Assembly (NCBI RefSeq): GCF_028368935.1
Contig: NZ_JAQNDK010000004.1
Span: 868,001-932,000, forward strand
Origin: Sorangium aterium
GTDB taxonomy: Bacteria > Myxococcota_A > Polyangia > Polyangiales > Polyangiaceae
Length of the DNA: 64,000 nt
Reading direction: 5' to 3'
In this document: piece after piece, positions 45,601-54,131 of the stretch
How positions within the stretch are numbered: position 1 is the first letter of the stretch
Layout of the letters: each line of letters opens with the position of its first letter
Notes under the pieces: model-generated
What the model was told of the DNA's origin: nothing
The model's input: the letters and a program-made list of their open reading frames with translations, nothing else
The model's database searches: none
Translations under genes and position numbers: made by a program

Positions 45601-47916
45601 ATGCAACCTTTCACGCTGCCCGACTTCTACATGCCGCATCCGGCGCGCCTCAATCCGCACCTCGAAGGGGCGCGCGCGCATACCAAGGCCTGGTCCTACG
45701 AGATGGGTATCCTGGAGGAGAACCCGCAGGGAAAACCCATCTGGACCGAGCGCGATCTCGACGCGCACGACTACGCGCTGCTCTGCGCGTACACCCACCC
45801 CGACGCGCCGGCGCCCGAGCTCAATCTGATCACGGATTGGTATGTCTGGGTGTTCTTCTTCGACGACCATTTCCTCGAGATTTACAAGCGCACCAAGGAC
45901 ATGCGCGGCGCGAAGGCGTACCTCGACCGCCTGCCGCTCTTCATGCCCGTCGTGCCCACGGGGACCCCGCCGGAGCCGACGAACGTGGTCGAGCGCGCGC
46001 TCGCGGACCTCTGGGCGCGGACCGTCCCGCTCACCTCGGTCCACTGGCGCGAGCGCTTCCTCGTGGCGACGAAGAACCTGATGCTCGAATGCATGTGGGA
46101 GCTCGCCAATATCCAGGAGAACCGCGTCGCGAACCCGGTCGAATACATCGAGATGCGCCGCAAGGTCGGCGGCGCGCCCTGGTCCGCGGGCCTCGTGGAG
46201 ATCGCCGTGGGCGCCGAGGTCCCGGCCGCCGTCGCCGCGACGCGCCCCCTCGAGGTCCTGCGCGACACGTTCTCGGACGGCGTCCACCTGCGCAATGACG
46301 TGTTCTCGTACCAGCGCGAGGTCGAGGACGAAGGGGAGAACGCCAACTGCGTGCTCGTCCTCGAGCGTTTCCTCGGCGTCCCCACGCAAAGGGCGGCCGA
46401 TCTGACGAACGAGATCCTGACGTCGCGGCTCCAGCAATTCGAGAACACGGCGCTCGTCGAGGTGCCGGCGCTCTGCGTGGAGTACGGGCTGACGCCGGCG
46501 CAGGCCCTCGACGTCGCCAAGTACGCGAAGGGGCTGCAGGATTGGCAGTCCGGCGGCCACGAGTGGCACATGCGGTCGAGCCGCTACATGAACCAAAACG
46601 CGGACAAATCCGCGAGCGTCCCCGATCTCGTCGGGGCGCCGACGGGGCTCGGCACCTCGGCGTTCCGGCTCAGGCTCACGCCCGGCGCCCTGGGTTTGCA
46701 GCGGATCAAGACCCTCACCCACGCCCCGTTTCAGCCTGTGGGCAGGACGCCGCTCCCGAAGATCCACATGCCGTTCAAGCTCCGCTTGAGCCCGCATCTG
46801 CCCGCGGCGCGCCGGAACACCCTCGAGTGGGCCCGCAAGTTCGCGATGCTCGACGTGGTGCCGGGCGTCTTCGGGTCCGGGATCTGGGACGAGCGCAGCT
46901 TCATCGGCTTCGATTTCCCCATCTGCGCTGCGGGCATTCACCCGGACGCGTCCCCGCACGAGCTCGACCTGAGCTCCGCCTGGCTGACGTGGGGAACGTA
47001 CGGCGACGATTATTTCCCGCGCGTGTTCGGCGCGACGCGGGACATGGCGGGCGCGAAACGGTTCATCGCCCGGCTCTCGATGTTCATGCCCCTCGACTGC
47101 GCGGGCGCCCCGGTGCCCGAGAACCCGGTGGAGAGCAGCCTGCTGGATCTCTGGATCCGTACAGCCTCCACCATGTCGATGAATTCGCGGCAATCGCTCC
47201 GCCGCAGCGTCGAGACCATGACCGGGAGCTGGCTCTGGGAGCTCCTGAACCAGACCCAGAACCGGATCCCGGATCCGGTCGATTACGTCGAGATGCGCCG
47301 CAAGACGTTCGGCGCCGATCTCACGATGAGCCTGTCCAAGCTCACGCTGGGCGACGTGGTCCCGGCCGAGCTCTTCCGCACGCGGACGATGCGAGGGCTC
47401 GACAACACCACGGCCGACGTGGGCGGGTGGATCAACGATCTCTATTCGTACCGCAAGGAGATCGAGTTCGAGGGCGAGCTCAACAACCTCGTGCTGGTCG
47501 CCGAGCGGTTCCTCGAATGCGACGCGCAGCGCGCCAAGGAGGTCGTCAATGACCTGATCACGGCGCGCGTGCTGGAGTTCGAGCACATCGTCGCGACCGA
47601 GCTGCCCCGAATCCTCGACGAGTTCGACCTCGACAAGGCGGCGCGCGAGGCCGTGCTCGGATACGTCGAGAAGCAGCGAGCGTACATGGCTGGCGTCCTC
47701 AACTGGCACGTCGTGACGAGCCGGTACGTGGACGCGGAGCTCGAGCGCCACCCGATCGAACGGGCGATCGAGGGCGCGCGTGGGTTTGGCGCCTCTGCGG
47801 CGCGTATCAGCAGTCTCTTCGGCGCCGGAAAAGCCGGCGCCGCGGCTCCTGCTGCGAAGGCGGATCTTTCAATGGGTACGGCGCGGTCCGTGCCGGCGAA
47901 GCACGGGCGGCCCTAG
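45601..47916 (+). CDS. geoA: Bifunctional germacradienol/geosmin synthase
   Basis: 771 residues from [20 protein letters not shown], the standard family start, with a GAGAAG site upstream. Two terpene-synthase domains are present. N-domain metal motifs: DDHFLE (88-93) and NDVFSYQRE (232-240); this half makes germacradienol from farnesyl diphosphate. C-domain: DDYFP (469-473) and NDLYSYRKE (612-620), which convert it to geosmin. Both domains have intact motifs. The interdomain linker (G349-LGTSAFRL) and C-terminal tail (G728-FGASAARI) carry the same short motif. The tail is ~45 residues longer than in the Streptomyces coelicolor protein. First gene of a tight run with two encapsulin-like genes and an MscS gene. 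Confidence 0.95.
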
Positions 47917-47937
47917 CCGTCCGGGAAAGAGATACTC

Positions 47938-52541: not shown

Positions 52542-52898
52542 CGAGCGGTTCGCCTCGCGGCCGTGCGCACGGCGCAGGGCGTGACGGTCGGCGCTGCGCA
52601 CCTGCCGGCGGCCGGCGGCGGGCAACATGGGATGAAGTCGGTCGATGTCGCCGTGAAGCTGGTTACGGGCCTGCGTTCGAAGCCGCGACTCGTTCTCGTA
52701 TTTCGACTACCCTGGTCAGAGCCACGGAGGGGTGACGGTTGCGACAATGGATCCGCCGGACGGAGCCGCCGCGCGAGGGGCCCCGCCGCCGCGATGCGCT
52801 CTCGCGACGTCGCCGCGGTCGAGGGCGCCGAGAGCCCGGCGGACCTCACATGCCGTGAAGCTCGCACGCACAGCGGAGAAGGAACGAGGAGGACAAGG
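52542..52898. other. Gap between MscS gene and monooxygenase
   Basis: No gene recognised. About 357 bp with no clear terminator, so read-through from the operon is possible but not shown. A strong AGGAGG ribosome-binding site for the monooxygenase lies at its right end. Confidence 0.4.
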
Positions 52899-54131
52899 AT
52901 GCCCACCATTGCAATCGTCGGCGCCGGCGTGGCCGGCCTGCACCTCGCGCTGCACCTCCAGAAGGAGGGCCTCGACGTGAGCCTCTACGAGGAGCGCACG
53001 CCGGACGAGATCCGGACGGGGCGCCTGCCCAGCACCGTCGGGCTCTCCCCGCCGACGCGGGCGCGCCAGCGGGCGCTCGGCGTCGCGCACTGGGAGGGGC
53101 CCGAACATGCCACCAGGACCATCCGGATCCGCGTGGCGGCCGCGCCGGCGCTCGACTTCGTCGGTCGCCTCGCGGATCAAGCGCTCTTCATCGACATGCG
53201 CGTCTATCTGCCCCAGCTGCTCGAGGACTTCGTCGCGCGGGGCGGCCGCGTGGTGAGGGCCTCGCTCGACGCGGCCGGCGTCCGCGGCCTCGCCGCCGGA
53301 CACGACCTCGTGGTCGTCGCCACGGGCCGGGCGGGCCTCACGGAGCTCTTCTCGAAGGTCCCCGAGCGAAGCCCGCACGCCGCGCCCATGCGGCGGCTCT
53401 TCGCGGGCATCGTCCGAGGGCTCCGCATGCCGCCCGGGCCGATGGAGTTCATGTTCCAGCTCTCCCCGGGGCACGGTGAGATCTTCGAGAACCAGTACAT
53501 CACGCTCGGGGGGATCGCGCCCTCGCTGCTCATCGAGGCGATCCCCGGCGGCGCGCTCGAGCCGATCACGCGGATGCGCTATGAGGACGATCCGGCGCGC
53601 TTCGACGCGGCGCTGCTCGACGCGGTGCTCGCGCACGCGCCGCTCACGGCCGAGCGCGTCGATCGGGCGAGCTTCGGCCTGGCCGGCCCGCGCGACTACC
53701 TGACGGGCGCCGTGACCCCGGTGGTGCGGCGCGCGTACGCGCCCCTCGGCGGCGAGCGGTTCGCGCTCGCGCTGGGCGATCTCCACATCACTTACGATCC
53801 GATCACGGGCCAGGGCGCGAACATGGCCACGCTCGCGGCGTCGCTGGCCGCCGAGCAGATCGCCGGGCAGGCGGCCGCCGGCGCCGCGTTCGACGAGGCG
53901 TTCTGCGCGGACCTGGAGGATCGCCTCTGGAGCGCGCTCCGGCCGGCCACGGAGTGGACGAACGCCTTTCTCCTCCCGCCGCCGGACCACGCGCTGGCCC
54001 TCCTCGCCGCGGCCGCGCGCAGCCAGCCGGTGGCCGACGCGTTCGCCACGAACTTCTCGTACCCGGAGCGCCAGTGGGCGATCCTCTCGTCGCCCGAGGC
54101 GACGGCCAGCTTCATCGCGAGCCACGCCTGA
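52899..54131 (+). CDS. StyA-like FAD-dependent monooxygenase
   Basis: 410 residues from the ATG after a perfect AGGAGG. The Rossmann FAD motif GAGVAGLHLALHLQKEGLDV starts at residue 8. Further features match styrene/indole monooxygenase oxygenases (StyA, ~415 residues): MRVYLPQLLEDF, LFSKVPERSP, FQLSPGHGEIFE, the FAD-pyrophosphate segment ITGQGANMATLAA, and the C-terminal FSYPERQW. StyA enzymes epoxidise alkenes using FADH2 from a separate reductase; no StyB gene is in the window. Proximity to a terpene synthase suggests a terpene or other volatile as substrate, which is inference. Confidence 0.88.
   Translation: MPTIAIVGAGVAGLHLALHLQKEGLDVSLYEERTPDEIRTGRLPSTVGLSPPTRARQRALGVAHWEGPEHATRTIRIRVAAAPALDFVGRLADQALFIDMRVYLPQLLEDFVARGGRVVRASLDAAGVRGLAAGHDLVVVATGRAGLTELFSKVPERSPHAAPMRRLFAGIVRGLRMPPGPMEFMFQLSPGHGEIFENQYITLGGIAPSLLIEAIPGGALEPITRMRYEDDPARFDAALLDAVLAHAPLTAERVDRASFGLAGPRDYLTGAVTPVVRRAYAPLGGERFALALGDLHITYDPITGQGANMATLAASLAAEQIAGQAAAGAAFDEAFCADLEDRLWSALRPATEWTNAFLLPPPDHALALLAAAARSQPVADAFATNFSYPERQWAILSSPEATASFIASHA

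Follow-up and report, generated by a model that had tools for sequence, protein, structure and literature searches.

A geosmin synthase and encapsulin gene cassette accompanied by an MscS-type channel gene in Sorangium aterium

Known geosmin compartments and the present locus

Geosmin-synthase-like cyclases that occur with family 2B encapsulin shells, two shell genes per operon, were described in PMC8346489 (Andreas and Giessen 2021), which also reports that these cyclases share the consensus [11 protein letters not shown], located between their two domains and again C-terminally. In PMC7251104, two "cnb" genes are reported directly downstream of geoA in cyanobacteria and Deltaproteobacteria, and PMC12224551 (also PMC12766979) places encapsulins in myxobacterial geosmin clusters. 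For S. lydicus, assembly of the two shell proteins into a common shell is reported in PMC12407261 (Dutcher 2025), together with two motifs that are diagnostic of them. Here, a 64,000-nt stretch of the Sorangium aterium genome (contig NZ_JAQNDK010000004.1, positions 868,001 to 932,000 of the forward strand; hereafter, the window) was analysed, which carries a geosmin synthase gene (geoA), two encapsulin shell genes (enc1 and enc2) and a gene for an MscS-type channel (mscS). As judged from sequence and from PMC8346489, PMC7251104, PMC12224551 and PMC12407261, a geosmin-synthase family 2B encapsulin operon with Enc1/Enc2-type shell genes is already known. The occurrence of an MscS gene as a member of an encapsulin unit in one myxobacterial group is apparently new, as is a transferred four-gene cassette. 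The comparisons given below make it probable that the unit is geoA-enc1-enc2-mscS and that the channel is a functional member of it.

In a literature search by title and the start of the abstract, with supplements, which may show a channel, outside its scope, no paper was found that linked MscS channels to encapsulins or geosmin genes; the same search, with the same scope, found none on a hairpin between encapsulin genes or on transfer of such a cassette.

Five genes on one strand occupy positions 45601-54131 of the window, namely, the four genes of the unit and a downstream gene for a StyA-like monooxygenase, separated by gaps of 21, 96, 14 and 357 bp. The original prediction, which had been made from the sequence alone, gave every one of these coordinates correctly. 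The features of the unit are as follows:

45601-47916, + strand: geosmin synthase GeoA, 771 aa (Pfam, NCBIfam, PDB match, motifs)
47938-49344, + strand: Enc1, family 2B encapsulin shell protein, motif 1 TVWR (NF041163, PDB 9bje, alignment)
49342-49440, + strand: Enc1 stop codon and enc1-enc2 spacer with a hairpin (folding, conservation)
49441-50841, + strand: Enc2, family 2B encapsulin shell protein, motif 1 RRRK (NF041163, PDB 9bix, alignment)
50856-52541, + strand: MscS-type channel, 561 aa (Pfam, PDB 3t9n, hydropathy, linkage, tree)
45423-52541, + strand: cassette geoA-enc1-enc2-mscS, transferred on the simplest reading (blastn, tree)

Pfam domains were assigned at E <= 0.001. Chance matches were excluded because the E-values were far lower (<= 1e-103 for the domains of GeoA and of both shell proteins, 9e-17 for those of the channel protein, 8e-27 for that of the StyA-like one). 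GeoA contained two PF19086 (Terpene_syn_C_2) stretches, in agreement with the complete two-domain synthase that had been predicted. It reached 1213 bits with the NCBIfam model NF041168 (family 2 encapsulin cargo protein terpene cyclase; cut-off 1200), carried the motifs DDHFLE at 88, NDVFSYQRE at 232 and NDLYSYRKE at 612, and matched PDB entries 5dw7/5dz2. Putative cargo tags resembling the consensus of PMC8346489 were found between the domains, near residue 349 ([11 protein letters not shown]), and, in a looser form, at the C-terminus, near residue 728 ([10 protein letters not shown]).

The proteins encoded between geoA and mscS had been taken for two paralogous SrpI-like proteins with a cyclic nucleoside monophosphate (cNMP) domain, and this was borne out. 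They were 62% identical, and in both of them PF00027 (cNMP-binding; residues 112-200 of Enc1 and 114-201 of Enc2) was followed on the C-terminal side by PF19307 (SrpI-like; residues 214-465 and 215-466, E 4.5e-137 and 5e-134). The proposed check against family 2 encapsulin profiles was run, and all 450 positions of NF041163 (NCBIfam; family 2B encapsulin shell protein) were matched by Enc1 with 765 bits and by Enc2 with 744 bits, above the cut-off of 400. In PMC7251104, the cyanobacterial counterparts are named Crp/Fnr-type global regulators, and regulation of geoA by the two cNMP-domain proteins is an alternative that agrees with the presence of PF00027 in both. It is extremely improbable, since the matches to encap_f2b and to solved shell proteins run the full length of both proteins and no DNA-binding domain was listed by Pfam. 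A helix-turn-helix in both proteins had been named in advance as an observation against shell proteins, and no such family was listed by Pfam for either. The Crp-type matches in NCBIfam were weak and confined to the cNMP part.

In an alignment of ten Enc1/Enc2 pairs (A1, 20 rows), a basic RRRK-like motif 1 was present in 10/10 Enc2 and in 0/10 Enc1 sequences, the window proteins reading ATVWREP in Enc1 and CRRRKSQ in Enc2. The best PDB match of Enc1 was 9bje (645.0 bits vs 628.9 for 9bix), and that of Enc2 was, by a very small margin, 9bix (621.0 bits vs 619.6 for 9bje). Both chains are named "Crp/Fnr family transcriptional regulator" in their PDB entries; judging from the published motifs in the alignments, they are probably Sl-Enc1 and Sl-Enc2 of S. 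lydicus. By this comparison, the window pair bears the published Enc1/Enc2 signature, in which motif 1 is TVWK-like in the first protein and RRRK in the second. In alignment A1, which does not contain CRP itself, a tryptophan (W173 of Enc1) was invariant in 20/20 rows near the place where the phosphate-binding arginine of a CRP-type pocket would be expected. This is in line with the statement in PMC12407261 that the domain studied there binds no cyclic nucleotide.

The locus resembles the systems of PMC8346489 in the shell family, the cNMP insertion, the two shell genes, the geosmin-synthase cargo and the tag positions; "mechanosensitive" occurs 0 times in the main text of that paper, with figures and supplements outside this count. 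With the clusters of PMC7251104 and PMC12224551, it shares the order geoA-shell-shell and the presence of encapsulins in a geosmin cluster, "mechanosensitive" again occurring 0 times in both main texts. The likeness to Sl-Enc1/Sl-Enc2 (PMC12407261) consists of the motif 1 types and a full-length similarity of ~620-645 bits, which makes a mixed (heteromeric) shell of Enc1 and Enc2 plausible by analogy. However, that system is of the xylulose-kinase type, whereas the window encodes a geosmin synthase; "channel" occurs 0 times in the main text of PMC12407261.

Two observations concern encapsulin genes more widely. Rfam matches to RF02735 ("Saccharopolyspora sRNA 350", antisense; 159 and 105 bits) were obtained on the - strand at 47966-48470 and 49479-49961, that is, on the antisense strand of both shell genes, and perhaps mirror the conservation of encapsulin coding sequence. 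A separate encapsulin-like gene of the same genome (G000:C1:984112-984975) matched positions 2-48 and 212-449 of the 2B model with 324 bits, below the cut-off; the cNMP part of the model was unmatched, and the gene probably belongs to family 2A.

Linkage of the channel gene to the shell genes

The channel protein consists of a ~280-residue N-terminal part with hydrophobic stretches, as judged by hydropathy, followed by an MscS core with PF21088, PF00924 and PF21082 (pore helix, beta domain and C-terminal domain), all above the Pfam cut-offs. Its best PDB match was 3t9n, over residues 310-533. The three core domains are shared with 3t9n and the YbiO-like PRK11465, from which the channel differs by the additional ~280 N-terminal residues, which have no PDB match, and by its place in a distinct Polyangiia clade. 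A Shine-Dalgarno sequence was not evident in the 14-bp gap between enc2 and mscS; therefore, translation of mscS may be coupled to that of enc2. Because PF00924 was matched only 8 times in the 13.47 Mb of the genome, adjacency of such a gene to shell genes by chance would be rare.

The linkage was studied in two sets of genomes, in which G000 denotes the genome of the window, other G numbers denote sampled genomes and L numbers denote loci. At an encapsulin threshold of E 1e-60, 25 of the 377 genomes of a phylum sample had an encapsulin match, ten of them with a two-shell 2B pair. An MscS homologue lay alongside nine of these ten pairs (in G263 with one gene between), and at the tenth, in G322, the contig stops 131 bp after enc2. 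In a class sample of 317 Polyangiia genomes, 2B shell genes were found at E 1e-130 in 27, and in 19 of these an MscS gene was located at the shell genes, in five arrangements:

geoA-enc1-enc2-mscS: 10 genomes (G000, G339, G368, G370, G292, G568, G569, G367, G353, G465)
enc1-geoA-enc2-mscS: 1 genome (G553)
mscS divergent from enc1-enc2-geoA: 6 genomes of g308 (G458, G459, G460, G461, G462, G464)
enc1-enc2-prenyl-synthase-like-mscS: 1 genome (G263)
mscS-enc1-enc2-methyltransferase-2-MIB-synthase: 1 genome (G364; 2-MIB, 2-methylisoborneol)

The channel had been put forward as a linked member of the locus, and the 19 of 27 genomes together with the tree described below show this for many Polyangiia. 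In G263, the shell genes and the channel lie together, with GeoA encoded on a different contig; in G364, the shell and channel genes accompany 2-MIB genes, and a search at E 1e-60 gave no match to GeoA. Because both genomes keep the pairing of shell and channel without an adjacent GeoA, the channel, judged by gene order, follows the shell rather than the synthase.

In a tree of MscS proteins (42 rows), 18 of the 19 linked channels fell into one clade of 21 rows with support of 100/100, the remaining three rows being those of G351 and G565 and an additional copy from G370. The linked label required 5 changes vs 13.9 in shuffles, and 0/500 shuffles were as low, a result to which near-copies contribute. 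An earlier MscS tree, in which second gene copies had been labelled as unlinked, gave no clustering (9 changes vs 8.9 shuffled) and was replaced. Co-occurrence was counted among the 317 genomes for a channel clade defined as the 25 genomes with a match at E 1e-42, minus G353 and G335; G566 and G567 were placed in it by identity (53%) and not by the tree. Clade channel and shell occurred together in 21 genomes, the channel only in 2, the shell only in 6 and neither in 288 (Fisher p = 2e-25, a value that overstates the case because shared ancestry is ignored). All four cassette genes were under purifying selection, with ratios of non-synonymous to synonymous substitution rates (dN/dS) of 0.19-0.33 in comparison with three g18 loci.

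A separate scan covered 80 named loci, the best 80 of at least 566 confirmed matches, by tblastn and a purpose-built MscS profile. The channel was found in 2 of these 80, both from Polyangiia, namely, Polyangium sp. y55x31 (L082, = G368) and Paraliomyxa miuraensis (L093, = G465). The survey of the geoA-cnb-cnb-mscS order suggested by the original prediction therefore had a divided outcome: the pairing occurs in many Polyangiia and was found at none of the sampled Myxococcus, Corallococcus, Citreicoccus or cyanobacterial loci.

Several results weigh against functional membership of the channel. Among the 80 loci, it was absent not only from those just named but also from the actinobacterial loci and that of Sorangium cellulosum So ceGT47; as a number of the contigs stop shortly after enc2, a few absences are not conclusive. 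Within the shell-bearing Polyangiia, no such channel was detected at E 1e-42 in G577, G579 and G513. In G565, G566 and G567, channel, shell and GeoA are all present but mutually unlinked, and in the G580 cassette only a truncated mscS remnant follows enc2. At the 2-MIB loci of three Nannocystis-type genomes (L084 of G464, L178 of G458, L181 of G460), no channel was found, in contrast to the geosmin loci of the same genomes. A clade channel without a detected 2B shell was found in G351 and, as a fragment at a contig end, in G581. The linked channel of G353 lay outside the clade and may represent a separate recruitment. No cargo-type tag was seen in the tails of the MscS protein, and an AlphaFold model of it from a three-row alignment (window, L082, L093) had a predicted local distance difference test score (pLDDT) of 48.6, which was too poor to be used. 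Moreover, shared ancestry explains part of the channel-shell linkage. Given the channel-less loci in Myxococcia, cyanobacteria, actinobacteria, three Polyangiia genomes and the three 2-MIB loci, it may be concluded that the compartment can do without the channel.

MscS-type channels are generally osmotic valves. Accordingly, the channel could be a safety valve co-regulated with geosmin production, for example, during development, without a physical tie to the shell. This is a serious candidate, rated a little short of an even chance, and it overlaps with functional membership, as a valve may still serve geosmin-making cells. It agrees with the eight PF00924 genes of G000, with the absence of a tag in the channel and with the sampled loci of other phyla (among the best 80 of at least 566), which have the same compartment without a channel. 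However, it does not readily account for the use of one particular channel clade among the many MscS-type genes of the phylum or for the five arrangements in which the channel accompanies shell genes whose partner enzymes differ. Alternatively, common ancestry and cassette transfer could by themselves have produced the linkage, the channel being a functionless hitch-hiker. The restriction of 18 of the 19 linked genomes to two families (f1 and f13) fits this explanation, as do the missing, unlinked and truncated channels of G577, G579, G513, G565-G567 and G580. It is nevertheless unlikely: the linkage survives rearrangement (channel downstream, upstream, divergent or after a prenyl-synthase-like gene, and geoA between the shell genes), the channel is under purifying selection, and a channel of another lineage occupies the same position in G353.

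Functional membership of the channel is preferred because of its linkage with different partners (GeoA, 2-MIB enzymes and a prenyl-synthase-like protein), its clade, its co-occurrence with the shell, the block transfer described below and the purifying selection. By likeness to published relatives, Enc1 and Enc2, as HK97-fold family 2B shell proteins, would probably co-assemble into a mixed shell, and GeoA would probably be loaded into it via GLGTSA-type tags and would convert farnesyl diphosphate into geosmin. Cyclic nucleotides are probably not bound by the outer cNMP-like domains of the shell, which may gate pores. The MscS channel would be a functional accessory of this geosmin/encapsulin system in many Polyangiia. 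It is only a tentative suggestion that it acts as a membrane partner of the shell, either docking the compartment at the inner membrane or coupling membrane tension to its operation; the tension might arise from a rain-driven osmotic downshift or from swelling caused by the lipophilic product. As a companion of shell genes whose partner enzymes differ, the channel gene offers a specific and testable candidate for such a partner. It bears on how a volatile lipophilic product exits a protein compartment and on why terpene synthases are enclosed; if the suggestion is true, encapsulins can possess a dedicated membrane channel.

Two further features of these loci were seen. The MscS proteins of G263 (L073:6114-8345) and G351 (L077:7166-9379) have a C-terminal extension that, by eye, resembles a calcium-binding EF-hand pair. 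In G565-G567 (L173, L174, L180), two divergent 2B shell genes have as neighbours a further encapsulin-like gene and a gene resembling that of a cysteine desulfurase; neither GeoA nor 2-MIB synthase was matched in these stretches.

Transfer of the cassette

According to the tool grouping, the genus of the window is that of Sorangium. However, the stretch 45423-52542 was 91% identical at the nucleotide level to G339 over 7.1 kb, and 45423-52541 was 90% identical to G368 (Polyangium sp. y55x31); for G569, the identity of the cassette was 92% (blastn). Overall, six g18 (Polyangium-group) loci were 85-92% identical, with right ends at 52525-52561, and the MscS stop lies at 52541. The flanks, by contrast, are Sorangium-like: the left one was 86-89% identical to the Sorangium-group genomes G577, G578 and G581, and the right one (57238-62017) was 84% identical to the same locus of G577. 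In G577 and G579 (So ceGT47), the geosmin loci themselves have the order enc1-geoA-enc2 and were only 72-79% identical to the window. No second full GeoA was found in G000. In a tree of GeoA and Enc1, the window and G580 grouped as a pair with support of 97, nested within the Polyangium group; G292 (g18) branched outside this pair with support of 100, and the nearest neighbours of the pair were unsure (57).

Because the cassette is Polyangium-like and its flanks are Sorangium-like, the simplest reading of these comparisons is that it was transferred as one block from the Polyangium group to the Sorangium group. G000 is reported to be 4.61% contaminated; the cassette lies within one contig between Sorangium-like flanks. 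No exact direct or inverted repeats longer than 11 bp were found at the ends of the cassette and of the insertion described below (45060-45600, 52535-52900 and 54680-54800). In PMC12224551, the five myxobacterial geosmin clusters studied are read as vertically inherited, whereas the present cassette appears to have been transferred and would be a counter-example to purely vertical inheritance. The transfer also indicates which genes travel jointly, and these include the channel and exclude the StyA-like gene.

G580 (L179) is a second Sorangium-group genome with a Polyangium-type cassette. Its enc2 contains a frame change and its mscS is truncated, which may reflect decay or poor assembly (1270 contigs).

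The enc1-enc2 spacer and neighbouring genes

The 99-nt stretch 49342-49440 folded with -58.1 kcal/mol (z -4.58; 0/200 shuffles as low) into a hairpin with a stem of about 25-27 pairs and no following U-tract. Its only match in the genome was itself. The hairpin was conserved in 8 copies of the cassette, among which 4 base pairs had changes in both partners; 12/500 shuffles reached this number. Of 98 collected spacers, those of 30-450 nt were folded, and 3 were left unfolded. A z of -3 or below was obtained for 19/48 enc-enc spacers vs 2/47 spacers of seven other kinds (GeoA-Enc 2/24, Enc-GeoA 0/7, Enc-GPPMT 0/6, Enc-FPPS 0/4, MIBS-Enc 0/3, Enc-MscS 0/2 and GPPMT-MIBS 0/1). When the eight Polyangium-type copies were counted once, the enc-enc proportion was 12/41 (p 0.0015), with other near relatives remaining, so that the counts are not fully independent. 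Stems of 19-29 pairs with unrelated sequence were found in G513, G263, Kutzneria, one Saccharopolyspora and Lyngbya, and shorter ones in L134, L143 and other cyanobacteria inspected; the folded enc-enc spacers of the Paraliomyxa, Nannocystis-type and Myxococcus loci had no such hairpin.

The recurrence of such folds suggests that the hairpin may control the Enc1:Enc2 ratio, and it would offer a testable handle on shell composition. Taken as a whole, the proposal that MscS physically works with the terpene encapsulins of Polyangiia, with tension controlling the nanocompartment, that the four geosmin genes form a mobile cassette and that the hairpin sets the shell ratio is speculative and rather unlikely.

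A promoter search gave no sigma-70-like promoter, terminator-like sites were about as frequent as in shuffles (4 observed vs 3.5), and no tRNA was found within the 64-kb window. The gene downstream of mscS is the following:

52899-54131, + strand: StyA-like flavin monooxygenase, outside the unit (NF045732 below cut-off; not found at related loci)

The protein contained Smoa_sbd (Pfam) and scored 367.6 bits with NF045732 (styrene monooxygenase StyA), short of the cut-off of 550, and is therefore termed only StyA-like. It had been listed with the geosmin genes in the original prediction, and it could be a fifth component of the unit, oxidising the terpenoid or a by-product. It lies on the same strand, 357 bp downstream of mscS, and G553 has a 68% identical StyA stretch on the contig of its geosmin locus, ~28 kb downstream of that locus; this proximity was taken as coincidence. 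Membership is very unlikely. Searches of 13 phylum-sample loci, the best 80 of at least 566 named loci and 20 Polyangiia loci gave no match to StyA, and the transferred block ends upstream of the gene. The closest copy (91%, window 52765-54134) is a separate gene of the Sorangium genome G579, at 3.04 Mb, far from the geosmin locus of that genome at 7.94 Mb. The guanine plus cytosine content of the gene is also higher (0.743 vs 0.674). Two other neighbours were rejected as members: an MFS gene, which had only 25-29% matches, at four Actinomadura loci among the best 80 of at least 566, and a GNAT gene, after a search of related loci.

The surroundings of the cassette appear to be an insertion hot spot. 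In G581 (L184), only 93 bp separate the sequences that match window positions 45070 and 54761 (the right one 77% identical), and the stretch 45071-54760 is therefore absent there. G580 (L185) has the gene 54135-54693 at this place, inverted, and 91-94% identical copies of this gene occur elsewhere in G577, G578 and G581.

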